Positions 3,459 through 17,689 of a stretch of 64,000 bases of DNA are shown in pieces. The stretch spans positions 1 to 64,000 of the forward strand of contig JAOAPV010000121.1 of the NCBI GenBank assembly GCA_025463055.1, read 5' to 3'. The first letter of the stretch is position 1, and every line of letters starts with the position of its first letter. A program made the position numbers and the translations under genes. The notes beneath the pieces were generated by a model that saw only the letters and a list, made by a program, of their open reading frames with translations, was not told the origin of the DNA and searched no databases. Source of the stretch: Candidatus Acidiferrum typicum. GTDB taxonomy: Bacteria; Acidobacteriota; Terriglobia; Acidiferrales; UBA7541.

Positions 3459-6440
3459 CTACTCCGCGGATGAGGACCAGCGAACGCCGGCCGAAACCGT
3501 CGGGTGGTAGTATTCGCGTTGGATGGGATATATCCCACTGCCTTGGTAGAAGCCAAAAACCTCGTTGCTGAGGTTCAAGCCGTAGGCCACCAGTCGCAGG
3601 CCCTTGCCGATTCGATAGCTGCCCTGCACATCAAACTGTGTGTGGGCATAGACGTAGATATCGCCAGTCGGGCCCTTCAACCCAAGAATCGGATCGTTCA
3701 GGCTTACTCCCGGTGAAGCTGAATAGTTGTACGCGTAGATGTTGGCGTCATTGTGGCTGACGCCAAAGCGCATCGAAAAGCGCGCCTTGTCGTAAGTAAA
3801 GCCAAGGTTCCACGTATTCGGCGCTTGGCGCAGCAGGGAAGGATGATCGGTCCTGCCGCCCGAAAAACCGGTAGGGAAGCTGACTCGCGATGAGGTGTAG
3901 CTGTAGTTGGCGGCTACGCCCAATCCGTTGAGTAGGCCCGGAAGCCGCGAAAGGCGCTGTTCCCAGGCGGCTTCGAAACCGGCGATATGGGCGTTCGGAC
4001 CGTTGATGGACTGGTTCAACTGGAACCCGGCGAATTGGCCAGTGGTAAGCGACTGGGTAGTGTTGTAAATGGGGTTTGAGAGATCCTTATAGAAGAATCC
4101 GGCTTGCAGGATCCCCAAAGGCTGGAAGTAATGCTCGACAAGCACATCGTAATCGTTGCCGCGAGTGGCTTTCAAAGCGGGATTGCCGATCACGACGTTC
4201 TTGGGACTCGCGTTTGGATTGACCACTAGCGAGGGCACGATGTCCGAGAAGTTCGGGCGGGAAATGCCCATACCGTACGTCGCGCGAACATCTGTATTCT
4301 GGTTGATCTGATACTGCACCTGAACGCTCGGGAGGACATTAAGATAATCTGCGCCCCCCGGGATCGGTGTGGTTGAGACCCAAGCTCCCGAATTCGGATC
4401 GCGATTCACTTGGTTCGCCGTGTACGACTCGTTCGTTGCCTCAAAGCGGAGTCCGGTTTGCACCCGGAACTTGCGGAAATTGATGGAATTCATCAGGTAA
4501 CCCGCAATGATGCGCTCGTCGCCGCTATAGTCAGAAGCATCAGACCGCAAATGGGTTTTGTTGGAATTGAAAGAGAAAGAGCTTTGGTTGTTTGTAAAGG
4601 CGTTGATGAGCTTATCGTATGTGGACAACGGGCCCATCGTATAAGAGTGATCGTAATAGTTCGGATCCGTGAATGTTCCAAGCGTCTGATCTAATGTCAG
4701 ATTCGGATTGCCATTCTCGAAATAGAGGTTATTGACGAAATTCACCTTGTGGCCGTTCCTCGCTTTGAAGCCTACCTCGAAAGTACCGAGATGCCCGCCT
4801 ACCGTGTAGCGCCGAGCCACGGAAGCAGCACCTTGAAAACTTAACTGCGAAGTATGGGCCACAACGTTTTGCACTTCACTTATGGAATAGGCGGTGGGAT
4901 CGAAAATATTGGTTCCATCGAGCACCGGGAATTGAGGCCTACGAGGATTAGTGTTGTTGAGGGCGAGGTCCACACCCGGTGTGATGACGGCTCCACTGTC
5001 AGTGAAGTTGGGTGCCGGGCCGTTGAAATAGGTGGTCGGAAAACCGCCGATTTGATGGCCGCGAGAAACTGAGAATTCATAACTGATCAGGGTGTTTGTA
5101 AGGTCGTGACGCGCTCCGGTCGAAAAACTGAAAAGTTGCTGGTCCGGCCGGCGGATGTACTCGCGGTATTGCATGGAACCAGGCTGGCATGGATTACTCC
5201 CCGGGTTTGTCGCATCTGCTGCCTGGTTAATCGGCGCGCAATCTGCGGCGTTATCAAAAGTGATCACCGGGCCGTTTACTGACTTCACGAAATTTCCGGG
5301 GTTGTAACTGTATACCCAGGTGCTGCCATAGTCGTGAAAATCGGAAAACAAGCCTTTCAGGTAGACGAAAGAGCCAGGAGCGAGGCGATAATCAAGGCTA
5401 CCGCCAAATCCATAGCGCGTCCGATAGTATTTATACTCACGGGTGTCCAGCGCGTTGGTGACGGCAATGGGGTTTCCGCTCGGATCGGTATTGGTTCCCT
5501 GGCTGGGTTCAAGGTCATTGATGCCGCGCCCGTTCCAGTCATAGCTGCCGCTTAACAAAGCTCCGAAACGTTTGTTCGCGCCAAACCGCTTGCCGGCGGT
5601 CCCAGTAAACGCGTCGAGCCAACGGCCGCCTGAAATTGGCGTATACCCGCCCATGCCCGAAAAACCGTAAATCGGCCTGTCCACCGCACTCTTAGTCACA
5701 AGATTAACGGAGCCGCCGATGGCATCCGCATCCTGGTTAGCCGATAGCGTCTTGTTCACTTCGATGCGATCAACCAGGTCCGCGGGGATAATGTCGAGCT
5801 TGATGTTGCGCACCCCCGATTCCGGGGACGGCAAGTCCACGCCATCGACCGTCGTGTTGCTCAGGCGCGGCTCGGTGCCGCGAATCTGCACGTACTTGCC
5901 TTCGCCTTCGTCGCGCTCCAGCGTGACGCTAGGCAGGCGGCCGACCGCATCGGCCACGTTCGTATTGGGCAAGCTAGTGATAACTCGTGACGGCAACACT
6001 TGCACGATGTTGTCCGCCATGCGCTCGATATTGATGGCCTCAGCCTCGCCTCCCAGTCGTTCGGCGGTGACCATCACCTGATCGTTCACCGAAGCGATCT
6101 TTAGTTGCGCGTCCACATTGACAGTCTGACCGCCATCCACTTTCACGCTCGTTGTGAACGAAGCGAACCCAACGTAGGAAACCGTCAGTGTATATTCACC
6201 CGCGGGCACGTCAGTCATGCGGAACTGACCCTGGTTATCGGACGCGCCTTTTCTTCCCAGAGGCTCCAGTTCGATTAGTGCGCTGGAAAGCGCGCCGTTG
6301 GCCTCATCTTTGACCGTGCCGCTAACAATGCCCTTCCGTTCCTGCGCAGACATCGGCAGAGCCGGCAAAAGCATAGCCAATACCGCGGACAAAATTATCT
6401 TCTTAAAACGGTTTCCGACACCGCAGTTCAAGAAATACAT
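3459..6440 (-). CDS. TonB-dependent receptor (Xanthomonas/Caulobacter type)
   Basis: A 993-residue outer-membrane, energy-coupled receptor. In order: a signal peptide ending MSAQ; a carboxypeptidase-regulatory-like beta sandwich (about residues 35-115); a plug domain with the motif VADAVGRLPSVTLERDEGEG, typical of the TIGR01782-type receptors often linked to plant polymer or saccharide uptake; and a long beta-barrel ending in an aromatic-rich terminal strand. The start is chosen 13 codons inside the longest frame because GGGAGGGGTGT directly precedes that ATG. It is divergent from the NarL-type response regulator, whose product may control it. The substrate cannot be told from sequence. Confidence 0.92.
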   Translation of the reverse strand: MYFLNCGVGNRFKKIILSAVLAMLLPALPMSAQERKGIVSGTVKDEANGALSSALIELEPLGRKGASDNQGQFRMTDVPAGEYTLTVSYVGFASFTTSVKVDGGQTVNVDAQLKIASVNDQVMVTAERLGGEAEAINIERMADNIVQVLPSRVITSLPNTNVADAVGRLPSVTLERDEGEGKYVQIRGTEPRLSNTTVDGVDLPSPESGVRNIKLDIIPADLVDRIEVNKTLSANQDADAIGGSVNLVTKSAVDRPIYGFSGMGGYTPISGGRWLDAFTGTAGKRFGANKRFGALLSGSYDWNGRGINDLEPSQGTNTDPSGNPIAVTNALDTREYKYYRTRYGFGGSLDYRLAPGSFVYLKGLFSDFHDYGSTWVYSYNPGNFVKSVNGPVITFDNAADCAPINQAADATNPGSNPCQPGSMQYREYIRRPDQQLFSFSTGARHDLTNTLISYEFSVSRGHQIGGFPTTYFNGPAPNFTDSGAVITPGVDLALNNTNPRRPQFPVLDGTNIFDPTAYSISEVQNVVAHTSQLSFQGAASVARRYTVGGHLGTFEVGFKARNGHKVNFVNNLYFENGNPNLTLDQTLGTFTDPNYYDHSYTMGPLSTYDKLINAFTNNQSSFSFNSNKTHLRSDASDYSGDERIIAGYLMNSINFRKFRVQTGLRFEATNESYTANQVNRDPNSGAWVSTTPIPGGADYLNVLPSVQVQYQINQNTDVRATYGMGISRPNFSDIVPSLVVNPNASPKNVVIGNPALKATRGNDYDVLVEHYFQPLGILQAGFFYKDLSNPIYNTTQSLTTGQFAGFQLNQSINGPNAHIAGFEAAWEQRLSRLPGLLNGLGVAANYSYTSSRVSFPTGFSGGRTDHPSLLRQAPNTWNLGFTYDKARFSMRFGVSHNDANIYAYNYSASPGVSLNDPILGLKGPTGDIYVYAHTQFDVQGSYRIGKGLRLVAYGLNLSNEVFGFYQGSGIYPIQREYYHPTVSAGVRWSSSAE

Positions 6441-9633: not shown

Positions 9634-10020
9634 ATGCCGAGTCCCTTACAAATTCTGATTGTCGACGACTCCGATGTGACGCGGCGCATTCTCTCTACGA
9701 TAGTGCGCTCCCGACAATGGAACGTTTGCGGAGAAGCGGAAGACGGGTGGTCGGCGATCAGAAAATTTCAGGAATTGCGGCCTGATCTGGTTCTGCTCGA
9801 CTTGGCGATGCCCGACATCAACGGCATCGAGGTCGCGCGAATGATGTCCGGCTTGGATTCCACCGTGCCAATCATTCTCTTCACCATAATGGATTTGGAA
9901 GGTCTTGAGAGCGCTGCTCGCCGAGCGGGCGTCTACGCCGTTGTTTCGAAAGCGCAGTGCTGGGATCTCCTCAAGAGCATCGACACCGCAGTCGCGCAAT
10001 CTCAAAGATTGATTCAGTAA
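9634..10020 (+). CDS. CheY-like stand-alone receiver protein
   Basis: A 128-residue single-domain response regulator. It has the acidic pair in IVDDSD (residues 10-12), the phospho-acceptor in LLDLAMPD (about residue 55), the signalling Thr in LFTIMD and the Lys in VVSKAQ. There is no output domain, so it would act by protein contact. It converges on a MauG-like peroxidase gene. Its last 33 bases recur almost unchanged (31 of 33) at 14596-14628, next to the second cytochrome/Fn3 cassette, which suggests it was part of the ancestral duplicated unit. Confidence 0.9.
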   Translation: MPSPLQILIVDDSDVTRRILSTIVRSRQWNVCGEAEDGWSAIRKFQELRPDLVLLDLAMPDINGIEVARMMSGLDSTVPIILFTIMDLEGLESAARRAGVYAVVSKAQCWDLLKSIDTAVAQSQRLIQ

Positions 10021-10062
10021 TACCCCAAGATCATCAATTTATTTCAGGCAACTCCCTGGGCG

Positions 10063-11472
10063 CTACAGGGCGCGCAGGAACGCGACTAGATCCTGCTTTT
10101 CCTGCGGCGCAAGTTTGGTGCTGAGGATTATGTTGAAGAACTCGACCGTGTCCTCCAGCGTCAGCAGACGCTCGTCGTGCATGTAGGGCGGATTATCCTT
10201 GACGCCGCGCAGCGCAAAGGTTTTGATCGGCCCGTCCCCAATGGCCATCATGTTGTTAATCATCACCGGCTTGAAGAAACGTTCCGTCTGAAGGTTGTGC
10301 ATCAAGTTATCGGTGTAAAACGGCGGCTGGTGGCAGCTCGCGCATTGACCCTTGCCAAAGAAGATCTCCTGGCCTCGCATCTCGGCGGGGGTCGCCTTGC
10401 TGGGAATGAGCTTGCCAAGAACGTCGAGCTTCGGCGCCGGTGGAAAGTCCAGCATCTCTTGAAAATCGGCCATGAAGTCGACCTGGCTTCCACGCTCGAG
10501 GGGGTTCACGCCCTTTTTCGTGGCAATCACAATATCGCCGTCGAAATACGCGGTCCGCTGTTCGAATTCGGTGAAATCCTCGACAGTCTTCAGGGCACGC
10601 TGCGACCCGAACAGCCGCTGAATGTCCATGCCGCGGAGCGACAGCGTCTTGATGCGGTGGCGGAACTGCTGCGGACGCGTATCGGGGGCGAGGTGCGTCG
10701 CGCCGTTTTGGTGGCCGTTCGAATGACAATCAAAGCAAGCCGCGCCGAGGCTGGGAATCGCCGAGCGGCGGTCCTCGGTCGCATTAAACTGCTGCTGCGG
10801 GAAGGGCGTAAGCAAAAGGCGCAGCCCTTCCAGTTGCCTGGGCGTGAGCAGTCCGTTGAACATCTCGTAGAAATTCGTGAGCGAGACCAGCTTGCCCTGC
10901 GAGACATCGCCCAGTTCAGGGCGCGGCGCCAAGTAAATGGCTGGCGGAAACTCGGCCAGGAAGTGATCCGGCAGATCGAAATCTATATCGAACCGGGTAA
11001 GGTCTCGCCCATCCTGCTGTTTGATCGCGTCGATCAGGAAGTGCGGAAAGACAAAGCCGCCATCGGTGTGTTTGGGATGCGGCAAGGGGTAGAACCCCTT
11101 CGGATATAGATTCTGTTCGCGAATCTGCTCCGCGCTCATCGCCGCCAGCTTCTCCCAGGTCATTCCCGCTGTCAGCTTGACTCTTACGCCTTCTTGCAGC
11201 GGTTTCCCGCGATCCATCGTGACACCCCGGGCGGGACGATCGCTCAGATCGTAGCGCTCGTTCATCACGGCGCTATGCTCCTTTTCCACCTCTGGTTTTT
11301 CCGCTTTCATTCGCGCCATGATCGATGCGAACGATTCGGTATGGTCCACCTTCATATAGCTCGTCTTCCCGCGTTCTTCTTGCTGTGCATGCGCGAAGCT
11401 CAAGAATACGAACAAACCTGCGACTAGCAGGAGCACCCCAATCCTTTCGATCAAACTGTTTGGCTTCGCCAT
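10063..11472 (-). CDS. MauG/cytochrome c peroxidase-family diheme protein
   Basis: A 469-residue exported diheme cytochrome. A signal peptide (about residues 10-30) is followed by two c-type heme sites, CFDCH (about residue 245) and CASCH (about residue 377), and the late MHDERLLTLEDTVEFFN segment typical of the CcpA/MauG family (YMHDGSL-like). Family members reduce hydrogen peroxide or oxidise protein residues in the periplasm; which applies here is unknown. AGGAGGTGGTGT precedes the chosen ATG. A 10-bp palindrome ATGACGTCAT lies 52 bases upstream (11524-11533). It is in line with, and downstream of, the cytochrome/Fn3 cassettes. Confidence 0.87.
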   Translation of the reverse strand: MAKPNSLIERIGVLLLVAGLFVFLSFAHAQQEERGKTSYMKVDHTESFASIMARMKAEKPEVEKEHSAVMNERYDLSDRPARGVTMDRGKPLQEGVRVKLTAGMTWEKLAAMSAEQIREQNLYPKGFYPLPHPKHTDGGFVFPHFLIDAIKQQDGRDLTRFDIDFDLPDHFLAEFPPAIYLAPRPELGDVSQGKLVSLTNFYEMFNGLLTPRQLEGLRLLLTPFPQQQFNATEDRRSAIPSLGAACFDCHSNGHQNGATHLAPDTRPQQFRHRIKTLSLRGMDIQRLFGSQRALKTVEDFTEFEQRTAYFDGDIVIATKKGVNPLERGSQVDFMADFQEMLDFPPAPKLDVLGKLIPSKATPAEMRGQEIFFGKGQCASCHQPPFYTDNLMHNLQTERFFKPVMINNMMAIGDGPIKTFALRGVKDNPPYMHDERLLTLEDTVEFFNIILSTKLAPQEKQDLVAFLRAL

Positions 11473-11523
11473 ACACCACCTCCTCAAAGAAGGGAATCGG
11501 CACCGTGAGCAATGAAGAATCGC

Positions 11524-11533
11524 ATGACGTCAT
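11524..11533. promoter_or_regulatory. palindrome upstream of the MauG-like gene
   Basis: ATGACGTCAT is a perfect 10-bp palindrome 52 bases before the start codon in an otherwise unstructured 237-base gap. It is a possible operator; short palindromes also occur by chance. Confidence 0.25.
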
Positions 11534-11709
11534 TCGGCATTCGCCACGTCAGGTGCCGCCCTTCGTTGCTGCCCTGGCGTTCTTTCCAGAATGTCGCCTC
11601 GCACAAAACTGCGACTCCAATAGACGGAATTCTTGTGAGACCGCGTGACTGGAGTGAACTACATACAGATGATTCAAATTGGTCTGATGAGCGCGCGAAG
11701 ATAATGGCG

Positions 11710-12114
11710 CTATTGTGTCGTGAACTTATTTACTGGGCTGGTGACTCCGTCGCTCTTGCCGTTGGCGTCCAGCGACTCAACCTTGTAGTAGTAGGTCGTC
11801 TTCGGCGGCAGGTCGTACAGGTGCACGCGGAACACCGTCGAGGAATGGGAAGGGTTCAACCTGATCGGATTTTTGGCGGTTTGGCTCAGGTCTTTTGGAT
11901 CCGTACCATAGTGCACAACGCCATAATGCACGGGCCCGCCACCGGGATTGTTTACCGTCCATCGAATAACCGTCAAATATCCGCCCGCCAACGCGATCTC
12001 TGGCCCCTGGCTAATCTGTACCCGCGTGGCTCTTGGAGTCGTTGGACTTTCTTGAGCGAGCAAGCTGCCGATGAAGACCACCATGATCGACACTGTCAAA
12101 AGCACTTTCTTCAT
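11710..12114 (-). CDS. small secreted Fn3-like protein, copy A
   Basis: A 134-residue protein made of a signal peptide (cleavage after LLAQ, about residue 19) and one fibronectin-III / purple-acid-phosphatase-N-like beta sandwich (IRWTVNNPGG, HYGTDP, TTYYYKVES). No enzyme domain follows, so it is probably a binding or scaffolding partner in the periplasm. GAGGT is spaced six bases from the ATG. It is the downstream gene of cassette A, after the diheme cytochrome gene and a large hairpin. It is about 70% identical by eye to copy B at 14640. Confidence 0.82.
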   Translation of the reverse strand: MKKVLLTVSIMVVFIGSLLAQESPTTPRATRVQISQGPEIALAGGYLTVIRWTVNNPGGGPVHYGVVHYGTDPKDLSQTAKNPIRLNPSHSSTVFRVHLYDLPPKTTYYYKVESLDANGKSDGVTSPVNKFTTQ

Positions 12115-12186
12115 GTTCACACCTCAAAGAGAATTAACTCAAGATGACTCAAAGCGAAAAAAACGCGGTCAACTGCCATCCGCGAT

Positions 12187-12243
12187 CTCTGACTCCGGCT
12201 CGTCCGCTCGCATTCGAGGTTTTGCGAGACGGACGAGCCAGAG
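12187..12243 (-). other. large intra-operon hairpin, cassette A
   Basis: GGCTCGTCCGCTCGCA (12197-12212) pairs with TGCGAGACGGACGAGCC (12223-12239) with one bulged base; outer CTCTG/CAGAG extends it. It sits between the cytochrome gene and the Fn3 gene. No T-run follows on the minus strand. The same hairpin is kept in cassette B. Possible roles are RNA processing, 3' end protection of the cytochrome message, or attenuation. Confidence 0.65.
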
Positions 12244-12297
12244 AGGAGATGGGTTATTGGTTTAGGTTTAGGACTTAGGCCGTCTGGCGTCCTCCGC

Positions 12298-14145
12298 TCA
12301 CGGAATTGGCTTAGTCGGGAGAGGCGCAACGCCGCAGATGGCCGATGCGCACGGCGGTAGAGGTGGAGTCGGGATAAGCGTGCTGTTCCCTTGCGTCGCA
12401 GCGGTTCCACCGGTCATGCAAACGCCCGTGAAGGTGTTCTTGTCCGGGTAAGGTCTCGAGAAGCCATCCGATAGCGTCATGAGGAACGCAACGATTTGGT
12501 TCTCCTCGGTGTCCGTCAAGCCGAGCATACCCGTCGTCGTGTCGAGATTGTTCCTGACCTCGGGCATCGGCCAGCACGTCACCCGCTCAATCGTTCCTGG
12601 CGGGCAGTGTCCGGAAGTGACCGGCTTGGCAAAGCTCGTGTCACGCGTGTTATAGAAATGTACGAGCTGCTTGAGGCTCTTGATGTAGCCGTTGTGAAAG
12701 AACTCCTTCTGGAAGTAAGGTCCGGGGGCCTCGGTAGTGGGGCACTGTGCTGGTGTCAACGCCACATCACGCGCGGAAGATACCTGAAATTGGCCGTCGG
12801 AGGTCGGCGCAAATTGTGTCCAAGTATCGTTCGGGCTCGGCGCCGCGCCGAAACCGCTTCGCAGGAAAGTTCCCAATCCCAAATCTCTGTAGCCGAAGCC
12901 AAAAGGATTGGGGGTGAAGCCGAAGAAGTCTGGCCTGTTCTGATAATAGAAAGCATCCCTCGGATTGAGGGGCAAGCCTTCATTTGCCGAGCCGAAGCAG
13001 CTGAAGATAGGTTTCACACTGGCGGTTGCGCCTGTGTCTTCGCCGTTCGGCGCCTCCCCTTCGGGAGGCGGGGGCGTCGGGGCAGTCGACCTGCCGTCCA
13101 CATGGCAGGAGTTGCAGTTGCCCTTGCCATTGAAAAGCTTGAACCCTGCCATCTCGTCTGCACTCAACGTGGTATCGCCAGCCAGGAACATGTCGAATTT
13201 CGACGAAAAAGCGCTGACATCCGGTGAAGCTTCGTATTGGTCGAGGGACTGTCCCCAATGGTCGTAGACGTCGTTTGCCCTGGCGCGGTCCTCAGGAGAT
13301 AGCTTAATTGGCGTGGCGCTCGTTCCGAAGATCTTAGCCCCGCCTGGGGTTTCGCAGATTTCCTCGGTGTTGGCTGGGAACTTGATGTCTAGGACATCGC
13401 CCCAGAATTCCTCAAAGAAGGATTTATAGACGGCGGTCTCAAGCCGGAACGCGATGCAAGCCGTGTCCGGTAACGCGTGTTCTTGTGTATCGACAGGAGG
13501 ATGCTGCGCCTGCTCTTCGTCAGGACTTCCTAGCATGTACCCTGTCGCGCGCGAATCCCAGAAGTTTCCACCAAAAAAGAGCTCCTGCTGGATGTTGAAA
13601 TTGAAAACAGGGAAATTCGGTGCATAAGTATATCTCTGCGCCGTCCGCTTGCCGGCCCGAAACTGAAATGATCCGGGATACGCAATCATCGTCAGGTTGA
13701 CGGACGGAATCGGTCCGCTAAAGCCGGCGTACGGCATATGGCAGAAACCGCAGGCCCTATTCTGGAAGGGGGACATATTCTTGTCGAAATTCAGGGCCTT
13801 GCCTATCAAAACGTTTAACCTTTGTCCGGTGTTCTGGAAGGTTGGCGGGTTACCTGTGAGGATCGGAGGCGGCAAGGCACGCAACTGTGCCAGCGCTTCG
13901 GCTTCGATGTTATCAACTTCACGGAGGACCCGGGCTATCTCGGAATTTAAATCAGCAGGGAGAATCCCCGGCGGGTACGGGTTGTACGGCGGCGGTGTTT
14001 TGTCGGGCTCATCTCCCGTATGCCATGCTGTACTTTGTGTGCCTGTACTTTGCGCCGAGATGCGCGCTGTTTGCGACGAGATGAGTAAAGCCAAAATAAC
14101 TGTCACTGTGACTGTACATAATGCGACGAGTCTTCTTCGGTTCAT
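12298..14145 (-). CDS. diheme cytochrome c peroxidase-like protein, copy A
   Basis: A 615-residue exported c-type cytochrome of the CCP/MauG family. Signal peptide about residues 7-30, then CGFCH (about residue 131) and CNSCH (about residue 342) heme sites. FFHNGYIKSLKQLVHFYNTRD (within about residues 505-530) corresponds to the C-terminal MHDG-type loop of the family. It is longer than classical CcpA (about 330 residues) because of a Pro-rich insert after the second heme and a Cys-containing Pro-rich tail. The start is the ATG after AAGGGGTTGGCCT. It is followed by a hairpin and the Fn3 gene. A full paralogue lies at 15205. Confidence 0.87.
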   Translation of the reverse strand: MNRRRLVALCTVTVTVILALLISSQTARISAQSTGTQSTAWHTGDEPDKTPPPYNPYPPGILPADLNSEIARVLREVDNIEAEALAQLRALPPPILTGNPPTFQNTGQRLNVLIGKALNFDKNMSPFQNRACGFCHMPYAGFSGPIPSVNLTMIAYPGSFQFRAGKRTAQRYTYAPNFPVFNFNIQQELFFGGNFWDSRATGYMLGSPDEEQAQHPPVDTQEHALPDTACIAFRLETAVYKSFFEEFWGDVLDIKFPANTEEICETPGGAKIFGTSATPIKLSPEDRARANDVYDHWGQSLDQYEASPDVSAFSSKFDMFLAGDTTLSADEMAGFKLFNGKGNCNSCHVDGRSTAPTPPPPEGEAPNGEDTGATASVKPIFSCFGSANEGLPLNPRDAFYYQNRPDFFGFTPNPFGFGYRDLGLGTFLRSGFGAAPSPNDTWTQFAPTSDGQFQVSSARDVALTPAQCPTTEAPGPYFQKEFFHNGYIKSLKQLVHFYNTRDTSFAKPVTSGHCPPGTIERVTCWPMPEVRNNLDTTTGMLGLTDTEENQIVAFLMTLSDGFSRPYPDKNTFTGVCMTGGTAATQGNSTLIPTPPLPPCASAICGVAPLPTKPIP

Positions 14146-14639
14146 AGGCCAACCCCTTCTATGATTACTGTTCGGACGTGATTGTCGCTGGGAGGTGTGA
14201 TTGTCAGCGGAAGATGTGCTTGTTACTGGGATGGATGCGAAGATGGCGCGCAGAGTAGACACACTTCGGCACAATTCCACGTGTCACCCATTAAAATAAG
14301 GATTGCTCGGTTCGGTAAGAAAGGCAGTCAGCGTCTTTACTGGGATGGTTGCGGAGGATCTCGGTTCATGGGCCAACCCCTTCCGTAACGAATCTTTGAA
14401 GCTGGATTGTCACTGCGAAAGATGCAAAAGACGGCGCGCAGGATAGATACAGGACCCCCAAATTTTGACGCGTCTCTGATTAAATTAAGATTGCTCGGTT
14501 CGGCAAGAAAGGCAGTCAGCGCGTTTGTCTTGGACTGCTGCGGAGGACCTATCCTGGAATCCTCTGGACCGGCGGATGCGCATGGCTTTTGCAATCCGCA
14601 GTCGCAAAATCTCAAAGATTGATTCAGTGATCCCATTGG
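14146..14639. repeat. leader repeats L1 and L2 plus cassette remnant
   Basis: A gene-free 494 bases made of imperfect repeats. L1 (about 14276-14357) and L2 (about 14460-14640) share AAGGATTGCTCGGTTCGG-like and AAAGGCAGTCAGC blocks followed by TGCGGAGGA. The same leader recurs as L3 at 17108-17290. Between L1 and L2 is a decayed copy of the cytochrome gene start and its upstream DNA (about 14362-14455). The last part of L2 repeats the 3' end of the CheY-like gene. Confidence 0.7.
14362..14455 (-). pseudogene. remnant of a third cytochrome cassette (5' end only)
   Basis: CGGTTCATGGGCCAACCCC here matches CGGTTCATAGGCCAACCCC at the start of copy A and CGGTTCATAAGCCAACCCC at copy B. It therefore keeps the ribosome binding site, the start codon and three codons (Met-Asn-Arg), then breaks straight into leader L1. 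Its upstream DNA (GATTGTCACTGCGAAAGATG, GACGGCGCGCAG) also parallels the upstream DNA of copy A. It is best explained as what is left after deletion of a middle cassette. Confidence 0.6.
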
Positions 14640-15044
14640 CTACGGTATCGTGAACTTGTTTACGGGGCTGGTCACTCCATCACTCGTGCCATTGGCCTCC
14701 TGCGACTCGACGGTGTAGTAGTAGGTCGTCGCCGCCTTAAGCCCTTGGATACGCACGCGGAAAATTGTAGAGGGATGGCTCGGGTTTAGTCGGATGGGAG
14801 ATTTCGCAGTCTGGCTCAGGTTATTGGGATCGGTACCATAACGCACGATGCCGAAATGGTCGGGCAAACCCCCAGGGTTGTTGGTCGTCCATCGGATAAT
14901 CGTCAAATATTCCTTAGCCAATTCGAGTTCCGGACCTTGGGTGATCTGGACGCGCGCGGCTTTTGGCGTAGCTGGACTTACCTGAGCGAGCAGGTTCCCC
15001 ATGAAGACGACCATGATCAACACTGTCAGAAGCAGTTTCTTCAT
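14640..15044 (-). CDS. small secreted Fn3-like protein, copy B
   Basis: A 134-residue paralogue of the protein at 11710: signal peptide, then one fibronectin-III-like domain with IRWTTNNPGG, RYGTDP and TTYYYTVES. The N-terminal 20 residues and the stretch SDGVTSPVNKFT are almost unchanged between copies, while surface loops differ. Its start has the same GAGGT spacing. It is the downstream gene of cassette B, and its 3' end abuts the repeated tail of the CheY-like gene. The function is unknown, presumably tied to the diheme cytochrome. Confidence 0.82.
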   Translation of the reverse strand: MKKLLLTVLIMVVFMGNLLAQVSPATPKAARVQITQGPELELAKEYLTIIRWTTNNPGGLPDHFGIVRYGTDPNNLSQTAKSPIRLNPSHPSTIFRVRIQGLKAATTYYYTVESQEANGTSDGVTSPVNKFTIP

Positions 15045-15101
15045 GTTCACACCTCAAAAAGAGAATTAACTCGAGATTACAAAGCGCCATCCGATCTCTG
15101 G

Positions 15102-15152
15102 CTCTGGCTCGCCCGCTCGCATTCGAGGTTCTGCGAGACGGACGAGCCAGAG
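15102..15152 (-). other. large intra-operon hairpin, cassette B
   Basis: CTCTGGCTCG (15102-15111) pairs perfectly with CGAGCCAGAG (15143-15152). The inner GCTCGCA/TGCGAG arms continue the stem around a TTCGAGGTTC loop that is nearly the same as in cassette A. One internal C/A mismatch and one bulge are present. It lies between the cytochrome and Fn3 genes, as in cassette A. Confidence 0.65.
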
Positions 15153-15204
15153 GAGAGATGCCATTGGTTTAGGTCAGTGGTTTTCGCCGTTTAACGCCCT
15201 CCGC

Positions 15205-17031
15205 TCACGGAATTGGCTTAGTCGGGAGAGGCGCAACGCCGCAGACAGCCGACGCGCACGGCGGTAGAGGTGGAGTCGGGATAAGGGTGTTGTTCCCTTG
15301 CGTCGCGGCCGTACCACCGGTCATGCATTTACCAGTAAAGGTATTTATGTCGGGGTAGGTACTCACGCTGGGGTTAGAAGGGTTGAAGCCGTCATTCAGT
15401 GCTTGCATGATGATCACGAGTTGGTTCTCCTCCTGATCCGTCAGGCCGAGATTACCGACCGTCATGTCGATGTTGTTCGGGACCTCGGGCATCGGCCAGC
15501 AATCAACTTTTTCGGTCTTCCCTGGCGGGCAGTGTCCGGAAGTGACGGGGAATGGAAACTTGTCGCGCGTGTTGTAGAAATGGACGAGCTGCTTCAGGCT
15601 CTTGATGTAGCCATTGTGAAAGAACTCCTTTTGGAAGTACGGCCCTGGTGCCTCTGTAGTAGGACACTGTGGCGGCGTCATGGCCACGTTGCGCACCGTA
15701 GACACCTGCTGCCGGCCGTCCATCCGCGGCGCCAACTCCGTCCAAGTCTCGTTCGGGTTGGGCGCGGAGCCGAAGCCGCTTCTAAGGAAAGTTCCTAATC
15801 CCAAATCGCGGTAGCCGAAGCCTAAAGGATTCGCAGTGAACCCAAAGAAATCCGGCGTGGTCTGATAAAAGAAAGCATCCCTGGGATTTAGGGGCAGGCC
15901 AAGATTGGAATAGCCGAAGCAGGTGAACAAAGGCCTCGCATTAGTGGCATATGTGCCGGTGTCGGTCTGGCCCGGCTTTAGGAGGGTCCTTTGTCCGTCG
16001 ATGTGGCAGGAATTGCAGTTCCCTTTGCCGGCGAACAAAATGGCACCGGCAAGCTCATCCGGCGTATAGGTGTACAGCCCGTTTATATTGGCATCGACTT
16101 TCGAGGTGAAAGGGCTGACCTGCGGTGAATCTTCGAAGAAGGAAATAGATTGTCCCCAGTGATCATAGACTGAGTTTGCTTTGGCGCGGTCCTCAGGAGA
16201 TAGCTTAATTGGTGTGACGTCCGTTCCGAACACCTTAGCCCCTCCGGGGGTTTCGCAGATATCCTCGGTGTTGCCTGGGAACCTGATGTCTAGGATATCG
16301 CCCCATATTTTCTCAAAGAAAGATTTATATACGGCGGATTCAAGCCGGAACGCGATGCAAGCCGTGTCCGGTAACGCGTGTTCTTGTGTGTCGACGGGAG
16401 GATGCTGCGCCTGCTCGGCATCGGCACTCTGTAGCAGATATCCGGTCGAGCGTCCATCCCAGAAGTTTCCGCCAAACAAAAGGTTCTGGTCTGGGTAGAG
16501 CTCGAGGACAGGATATCTGGGTGAATAGGTGTATCTCTGCGCGGTCCGCTTGCCGGCCCGAAACTGAAATGATCCGGGATACGCGATCATCGTCAGATTG
16601 ACGGATGGGATCGGTCCGCTAAAGCCGGCGTACGGCATGTGGCAGAAAGCGCAGGCCCTGTTCTGGAAGGGGGACATATTCTCGTCGAAATTCAGAAGCT
16701 TACCGAGTGTTTGTACTGCTTGATATCCGGTACCTTGCAGGGTCGGTGGTTGCCCCGTCACAGTCAGAGGCGGCAATGCGCGCATCTCTCCGAGAGCTTG
16801 ATTGAAGATGAATCGGACTTCCCTCCGGACCCTGGCTATCTCGGAATTCAAATCGGCGGGCAGAATCCCAGGCGGGTACGGGTTGTAAGGCCGCGGCGGG
16901 GGTTCCTCGCGATCCACTCCACTATTTTGAGTATTTTGCGCCGATATGAGCATGGTTTGCGACGATATAAGCAAACCTAAGAGAACTGTTACAGCAACCG
17001 TACATAATCCTACGAGTTTTCTCCGGTTCAT
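15205..17031 (-). CDS. diheme cytochrome c peroxidase-like protein, copy B
   Basis: A 608-residue paralogue of the protein at 12298 with the same order: signal peptide, CAFCH heme site (about residue 127), CNSCH heme site (about residue 338), FFHNGYIKSLKQLVHFYNTRD region, and an identical CGVAPLPTKPIP tail. Long blocks are unchanged (for example MSPFQNRAC and FQFRAGKRTAQRYTY); the divergent parts are the N-terminal linker and the insert after heme 2, where copy A has a Pro-rich stretch that copy B lacks. Substrate or partner divergence after duplication is plausible. It starts with AAGGGGTTGGCTT before the ATG. Confidence 0.87.
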   Translation of the reverse strand: MNRRKLVGLCTVAVTVLLGLLISSQTMLISAQNTQNSGVDREEPPPRPYNPYPPGILPADLNSEIARVRREVRFIFNQALGEMRALPPLTVTGQPPTLQGTGYQAVQTLGKLLNFDENMSPFQNRACAFCHMPYAGFSGPIPSVNLTMIAYPGSFQFRAGKRTAQRYTYSPRYPVLELYPDQNLLFGGNFWDGRSTGYLLQSADAEQAQHPPVDTQEHALPDTACIAFRLESAVYKSFFEKIWGDILDIRFPGNTEDICETPGGAKVFGTDVTPIKLSPEDRAKANSVYDHWGQSISFFEDSPQVSPFTSKVDANINGLYTYTPDELAGAILFAGKGNCNSCHIDGQRTLLKPGQTDTGTYATNARPLFTCFGYSNLGLPLNPRDAFFYQTTPDFFGFTANPLGFGYRDLGLGTFLRSGFGSAPNPNETWTELAPRMDGRQQVSTVRNVAMTPPQCPTTEAPGPYFQKEFFHNGYIKSLKQLVHFYNTRDKFPFPVTSGHCPPGKTEKVDCWPMPEVPNNIDMTVGNLGLTDQEENQLVIIMQALNDGFNPSNPSVSTYPDINTFTGKCMTGGTAATQGNNTLIPTPPLPPCASAVCGVAPLPTKPIP

Positions 17032-17689
17032 AAGCCAACCCCTTCTATGGTTAATGTTCGAACCTGATTGCCGGGAATATTCAACGATGGCAGGATGGAC
17101 GCACCACGGCACACTTCGACGCGTCACTCATTTAAGTTAAGGATTGCTGGGCTCGCTAGGAAAGGCAGTCAGCTCTCTTGCTTAAACTGCTGCGGAGGAC
17201 CTATTCCGGAATCATCTGGGACCGGCGGATGCGCATGGCTCGTACAATTTCGCGATCCGCGCGATTCTCAAACTCTTCTGGTAGGCAACGGGGACTGTCA
17301 CCTATACAGATCCCGATCTCTGTCGCGATCGATTGGCTCAGCGGATGGAACTCGCCCGCAGCCAATGCCGACAGATCAAAACCAGTTCGTGGCGTCTTGC
17401 TATCTTTCTAAGCGCATCTGAAGCACTGAAGTGATTCAGGCGCAGAAACACATCAAATCAGAATTGCCAGATCACGTGCCTTGGCAAATTCTCTCCCGAA
17501 GTTGCTCGCTCGCGTTTCGTACGTAACCTAAAATGGTCTCACATTTCTGTCAATGCGCAGGACTCTGTACGCGTCCTGACTGTCAAAATCTGGCGAAGGC
17601 GCTGTTCCATCCCGCCGCTGAGTTCTAGTCCCGAAATCCTCGCGCCGTTGGGCGCTAGCCGCGCCCTCGCTCTCCGTCGGATGGTTCGT
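17032..17689. other. gene-free region with leader repeat L3
   Basis: The first part, about 17032-17107, is the upstream DNA of cytochrome copy B. L3 (17108-17290) is the third copy of the leader and ends in a diverged version of the CheY-gene tail (GATCCGCGCGATTCTCAAAC, 17254-17273). The remaining 400 bases hold no gene I can support; open frames there are short and show no family features. Confidence 0.55.

Follow-up and report, generated by a model that had tools for sequence, protein, structure and literature searches.

A diheme cytochrome gene followed by a gene for a small secreted fibronectin type III (Fn3) protein forms a pair that recurs across several bacterial phyla and appears to be an enzyme–partner system not described before. 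We found this pair twice, in two tandem cassettes, in the window analysed here, a stretch of 64,000 nucleotides from Candidatus Acidiferrum typicum. Among the papers searched, none joined MauG, fibronectin type III and diheme. The most likely function, to which we give about an even chance, is that of an H2O2-driven enzyme of the MauG/BthA class which acts on the secreted Fn3 partner or is docked by it. The features of the locus, in window coordinates, are the following:

17032..17460, minus strand: leader of cassette B, full length, a conserved upstream element (similarity to the other leaders)
15205..17031, minus strand: CytB, predicted secreted MauG-class diheme cytochrome, 608 residues from the ATG (Pfam CCP_MauG, E = 4.5e-12)
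15092..15149, minus strand: hairpin between CytB and Fn3-B (minimum free energy -41 kcal/mol, z = -5.65)
14640..15050, minus strand: Fn3-B, predicted secreted stand-alone Fn3 domain like the N-terminal domain of purple acid phosphatases (PAP_N; PF16656, E = 6e-11)
14596..14634, plus strand: echo of the 3' end of the CheY gene (35/39 identical to 9986-10024)
14362..14595, minus strand: putative relic of cassette M, with leader, ribosome-binding site and the first 8 nucleotides of the cytochrome gene (ATGAACCG)
14146..14361, minus strand: leader of cassette A, distal end cut short (similarity to leaders M and B)
12298..14145, minus strand: CytA, predicted MauG-class diheme cytochrome, 615 residues (Pfam CCP_MauG, E = 2.3e-13)
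12183..12240, minus strand: hairpin between CytA and Fn3-A (minimum free energy -38 kcal/mol, z = -5.75)
11710..12120, minus strand: Fn3-A, predicted secreted stand-alone PAP_N-like Fn3 domain (PF16656, E = 1e-9)
10063..11472, minus strand: cyt3, remote diheme peroxidase relative after cassette A, of a family other than that of CytA and CytB
9634..10020, plus strand: CheY-like receiver, stand-alone, its tail at the putative duplication edge (Response_reg, E = 5.5e-22)

The two head-to-tail cassettes described in the initial annotation, in the order cytochrome, hairpin and Fn3, are thus present, all on the minus strand. Comparison of the window with itself gives a repeat diagonal between cassettes A and B (11709-14361 against 14639-17202; 74% identity over 2,685 bp, E = 0), together with repeat families D1-D10 at a spacing of about 2.9 kb. 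Both intergenic hairpins, the shared leader (homologous stretches at 17030-17460, 14364-14595 and 14146-14361) and the truncated middle copy, with its leader, ribosome-binding site and ATGAACCG at 14362-14369, all named in that annotation, were also found, as was the echo of the CheY tail (E = 6e-7), which scores 31, whereas 300 shuffles reach at most 16. The third MauG-like gene that it had listed, cyt3, does belong to the superfamily, but as a remote member, its best PDB match being a bacterial cytochrome c peroxidase (E = 8e-5). By eye, cyt3 has an apparent Phe (EFFNIIL) at the position of the MauG ligand Tyr294; its relatives adjoin cassettes in loci L021 (89% identity) and L025 (71%). In the whole genome (5.33 Mb, 146 contigs) a third complete cytochrome–hairpin–Fn3 cassette, cassette C, is found on contig C10 (5528-7951). 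No plasmid match was obtained at E-values up to 1e-30.

The assignment of the cassette cytochromes to the MauG/BthA enzyme class is well supported by their sequences. The profile of the CCP_MauG superfamily (PF03150) is matched by 49/49 cytochromes, and the Cys and His of the two CXXCH heme motifs are conserved in 48-49 of the 49. Among PDB entries, the cytochrome profile matches MauG (E = 8e-31), BthA (1e-23) and the MauG-like enzyme 6e1c (6e-11), with the classical peroxidases behind MauG and BthA at 5e-10 or weaker. The AlphaFold model of CytB, of moderate confidence (pLDDT 64), superposes on the MauG fold with a Z-score of 17.6 and an rmsd of 3.3 over 327 residues, and has Z-scores of 14.7 with BthA and 10-14 with bacterial peroxidases. 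In the alignment, the interheme W93, the distal Q103, P107 and E113, and the axial ligand Y294 of MauG correspond to W223, Q239, P243, E249 and Y518 of CytB (counted from the long open frame); Y294, Q103 and P107 are kept in 49/49 sequences, and W93 and E113 in 48/49. The axial Met ligand of classical bacterial cytochrome c peroxidases is absent, a Tyr occupying this position in 49/49, and the Ser of BthA at the interheme position is also absent, with Trp in 48/49. The MauG exit residue towards the substrate, W199, is replaced by Gly or Ala. CytA and CytB score below the cut-offs of both the MauG equivalog TIGR03791 (29.6 and 13.8 bits, cut-off 443.85) and the MbnH model TIGR04039 (37.8 and 23.4 bits, cut-off 362.85), and no recurrent mau-type neighbour was found in the gene clusters shared by the loci, some of whose neighbours are unannotated. 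Six further Cys are invariant or nearly so, suggesting disulfides, and signal peptides were recognised by eye at the N-termini of both the cytochrome and the Fn3 protein. In L012/L064, L063, L068 and L072 a frameshift splits the cytochrome gene, reflecting either a pseudogene or an assembly error.

By profile and fold, the partner is a stand-alone purple-acid-phosphatase N-terminal domain. All 47 Fn3 proteins match PF16656 at E-values of 1e-3 or better, with Fn3-A, Fn3-B and Fn3-C reaching 39.2, 43.2 and 31.1 bits (curated cut-off 30). The model of Fn3-B is of good quality (pLDDT 85.6). In structure it comes closest to a purple acid phytase (Z 10.6), a score that other Fn3 domains equal. No Pfam match to a metallophosphatase catalytic domain was found, and the open frames contain nothing after the Fn3 domain. 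The family has two conserved motifs, NNPGG..H and RLN..H, and its conserved Trp and Tyr are limited to W54, Y71 and Y110-112, which we take to be ordinary fold-core positions, leaving no obvious target for modification.

Other genomes were searched with each of the two genes. The cytochrome search gave 52 loci, with record labels including Acidobacteria, Proteobacteria, Myxococcales, Verrucomicrobia and Rokuibacteriota; many of these loci come from metagenome bins, and mis-binning may account for part of the phylum labels. Pairing was counted in 50 of the 52, leaving out two cut at a contig end. The Fn3 gene lies directly downstream of the cytochrome in 42/50 (in one case broken, L051), and is absent from the remaining 8, one of which has a remnant (L070). 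The loci lacking Fn3 include Alphaproteobacteria, where mostly a multicopper oxidase is found beside the cytochrome; in L057-L060 the cytochrome relatives adjoin this gene as though the partner had been replaced. Secreted-looking catalase genes were observed near C-type cassettes (L010:8024-8392, L046 and L070), with a gene for oxalate decarboxylase in L046 as well. In the Fn3 search, 7/7 close Fn3 genes in 95 genomes of the order adjoin a cytochrome, and a phylum sample of 396 genomes gave four more, 4/4 of them next to a cytochrome. Rather than occurring mostly without the cytochrome, close Fn3 genes therefore adjoin it in 11/11 cases, indicating that cytochrome and Fn3 form a conserved module. 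A two-domain protein of more remote similarity (G380) is not beside a cytochrome, and L099:1294-2214 encodes a 307-residue protein that carries two PAP_N domains, with no cytochrome in the stretch examined. Membership of the CheY-like receiver in the module was also considered; no such gene was found next to other cassettes, and it is probably a bystander.

The leader upstream of the cytochrome is also conserved. The leader of cassette B is 77% identical over about 340 bp, in apparently non-coding DNA, to C10:3981-4302, and about 71% identical to the upstream regions of the cassettes in L032 and L026, from two other genomes of the genus. Leader M matches 17024-17248 at 74% over 237 bp, rising to 82% within the best-matching 135 bp, and leader A is 75% identical to leader M and 76% to leader B. 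Throughout the 5.33-Mb genome, the leader was found only near cassettes (A, B, M and that on C10). Contig C10 has two leader copies (L010:3939-4302 and 5433-5522), with a gene for a small secreted repeat protein (4476-5084) between them. A scan for consensus promoters and terminators gave no more matches than in shuffled sequences.

The two hairpins of the window (z about -5.7) share a sequence that, in the whole genome, is confined to the three cassettes; the possibility of a REP-like dispersed repeat was ruled out on this ground. No Rfam family matched at E-values up to 1. A strong hairpin is present in 24/40 comparable cytochrome–Fn3 spacers, against 4/31 control spacers (p = 7e-5), with at least two unrelated sequences across the loci: a first type in this genus and some relatives (CTCTGGCTCGTCCG...), and another elsewhere (GCATGGGGGCC...GGCCTCCATGC), sometimes followed by a T run. 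Two-sided compensatory changes are absent from the type-1 hairpins, so that the evidence for their structure comes from folding energy and recurrence. The recurrence of the structure with different sequences argues for a role, which would most simply be partial termination or protection of the transcript end, setting the ratio of the two messages. In cassette A, a second small GC stem with TTTTTTT follows the large hairpin (12142-12190, minus strand); it resembles an intrinsic terminator and is absent from cassette B.

The initial annotation had suggested a larger ancestral unit, duplicated and then eroded, and part of this history is visible. The homology of leader M to cassette B ends at 14595, where the CheY echo begins, as would be seen if a tandem duplication had been joined at 14595/14596, and the remains of an eroded extra copy can be recognised. 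Since the leader, ribosome-binding site and ATGAACCG of relic M run straight into leader A, deletion of at least one more cassette between A and B is probable, to judge from the sequence. However, CytA and CytB are not mutual duplicates. CytA belongs to a tree clade with L025, L026, L028 and L032, and CytB to a different supported clade, and the two are old paralogues. That A and B arose by simple and recent tandem duplication was considered and rejected, as trees in which CytA and CytB are forced together fail the AU test (p-AU 1.7e-6).

Fn3-A, Fn3-B and Fn3-C cluster together, by genome, whereas their cytochromes do not, and the cytochrome and Fn3 data sets each reject the grouping of the other (p from 0.005 to 3e-9). 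This indicates that Fn3 was homogenised within the genome and not matched to the cytochrome clades, which weakens the earlier picture of a separate Fn3 partner for each peroxidase. Sliding identity between A and B gives stretches of 84-86% beside 65%, and between A and C it reaches 85-88% toward the 3' end; conversion-like tracts are found in both comparisons (p = 0.0005, site-permutation test). Taken with the tree conflict, these patches and tracts make the array look like old recombining paralogues with homogenised Fn3 and spacer, and on such patterns the cassettes are recombination mosaics. The agreement between cytochrome and Fn3 trees is weak (r = 0.29), arguing against tight co-diversification. 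B-type cytochromes also head other tandem loci (L023, L025), the order in L025 being B-type, Fn3, A-type and cyt3, with cyt3 inverted. With an A–B dN/dS of 0.28 between the cytochromes and 0.21 between the Fn3 genes, neither gene is decaying; the array had been called partly decayed, but decay is confined to its middle copy, with cassettes A and B intact (dN/dS 0.2-0.3).

In the mechanism that we propose, the cytochrome would use a five-coordinate heme to react with H2O2, sharing the oxidising equivalents with the second, Tyr/His-ligated heme, as the retained residues suggest, and would then oxidise the Fn3 partner, or something that this partner docks. The conserved leader and the hairpin would probably set expression, with the hairpin separating the transcript levels of the two genes. 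The tandem array would consist of old paralogous cassettes that recombine, one of at least three members having been deleted down to its leader.

The role of the Fn3 protein can be read in two ways. MauG oxidises methylamine dehydrogenase in TTQ maturation, and MbnH is reported to modify MbnP likewise; similarly, the cytochrome may oxidise a residue of Fn3, the modified Fn3 being the functional product, which we consider possible but doubtful. The adjacency of the genes, the small secreted partner whose close homologues are never found alone and the retained MauG residues all favour this, as does the proposal that BthA oxidises its phosphatase (PMC6405878), although the Trp199 exit route is missing and 8/50 cytochrome loci have no Fn3. 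Moreover, the resemblance of the invariant Fn3 aromatics to fold core means that the client role is not favoured over docking. Fn3 and PAP_N domains are binding modules, and an alternative to which we give the same weight is that Fn3 serves as a subunit for docking or targeting, keeping the peroxidase attached to a cell-surface or soil substrate, where small molecules or polymers such as phenolics or lipids would be oxidised. The exchange of Fn3 between cytochrome clades is as expected of a generic binder, and points to a conserved interface that is generic and not tailored. Among the neighbours in some loci are multicopper oxidases, secreted catalase and oxalate decarboxylase, which agree with docking, but the neighbours are inconsistent across loci.

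Alternatively, the cytochrome could be an ordinary periplasmic H2O2-scavenging peroxidase with the Fn3 gene as an operon passenger: it shares superfamily and fold with bacterial cytochrome c peroxidases (Z 10-14), and the close relative BthA is a good peroxidase (PMC6405878). We find this unlikely, given that Tyr replaces the peroxidase-type Met ligand in 49/49 and that Fn3 is under purifying selection and its close homologues never stand alone. An oxygenase of rubber or fatty acids of the RoxA/FadCcp type would agree with the similar size, the spacing of about 210 residues between the two CXXCH motifs and the tandem paralogues, as in PA2077/PA2078 (PMC4496055). Yet RoxA is not among the PDB sequence hits at E-values up to 1, where MauG has 8e-31, and there is no conserved C-terminal His equivalent to the second-heme ligand of these enzymes, the only His conserved past residue 520 being H532 (39/49), which makes such an oxygenase very improbable.

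The long-range protein oxidation performed by MauG and its relatives is rare, and to our knowledge few enzyme–client pairs are known for MauG-type enzymes. An enzyme with the MauG residues and a tiny, easily purified partner, in a conserved and defined pair, makes a direct test possible. The pair would also be a second, independent link of BthA-like enzymes to purple-acid-phosphatase-type proteins, with a bearing on the role of BthA. A wider and somewhat improbable extension is that PAP-type Fn3 domains are general clients or docking partners of MauG/BthA-class enzymes, presumably fused to the phosphatase in Burkholderia and bare in Acidobacteriota and others. On that extension the pair would be a new protein oxidation system driven by peroxide, spreading as cassettes with cytochrome and Fn3 halves exchanged by recombination.

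Among known systems, MauG is the best match of the cassette cytochromes in both sequence and fold, with W93, Q103, P107, E113, Y294 and both CXXCH hemes kept. In contrast, the cassette cytochromes are about 250 residues longer and lack W199, their partner is an Fn3 domain instead of methylamine dehydrogenase, and no mau operon is seen among the annotated genes beside the cassettes. The MbnH–MbnP pair (MXAN_0977/0976) likewise joins a MauG-like diheme enzyme to a small secreted protein encoded next to it, but the similarity is weak (TIGR04039 37.8 bits against the cut-off of 362.85) and the partner is from another family. RoxA and the FadCcps (PA2077-PA2078) are diheme enzymes of similar size, the FadCcps being tandem paralogues; their second heme is bis-His, whereas the cassette cytochromes have an invariant Tyr. 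The partner is a PF16656 domain by profile (47/47) and structure, but it has no attached metallophosphatase domain and carries its own conserved NNPGG..H and RLN..H motifs. BthA of Burkholderia, the closest relative characterised besides MauG itself, invariably has a putative purple acid phosphatase nearby, the outward-facing PhosA, which has been proposed as the protein it oxidises (PMC6405878). In both cases a MauG-class diheme enzyme is linked to an outward-facing protein of the purple acid phosphatase kind, although BthA has a Ser (Ser257; PMC6405878) where MauG and the cassette cytochromes have Trp93, and the cassette partner is a bare N-terminal Fn3 domain, without phosphatase, encoded downstream of the enzyme. 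This parallel is the strongest hint that we found to the function of the cytochrome–Fn3 pair.
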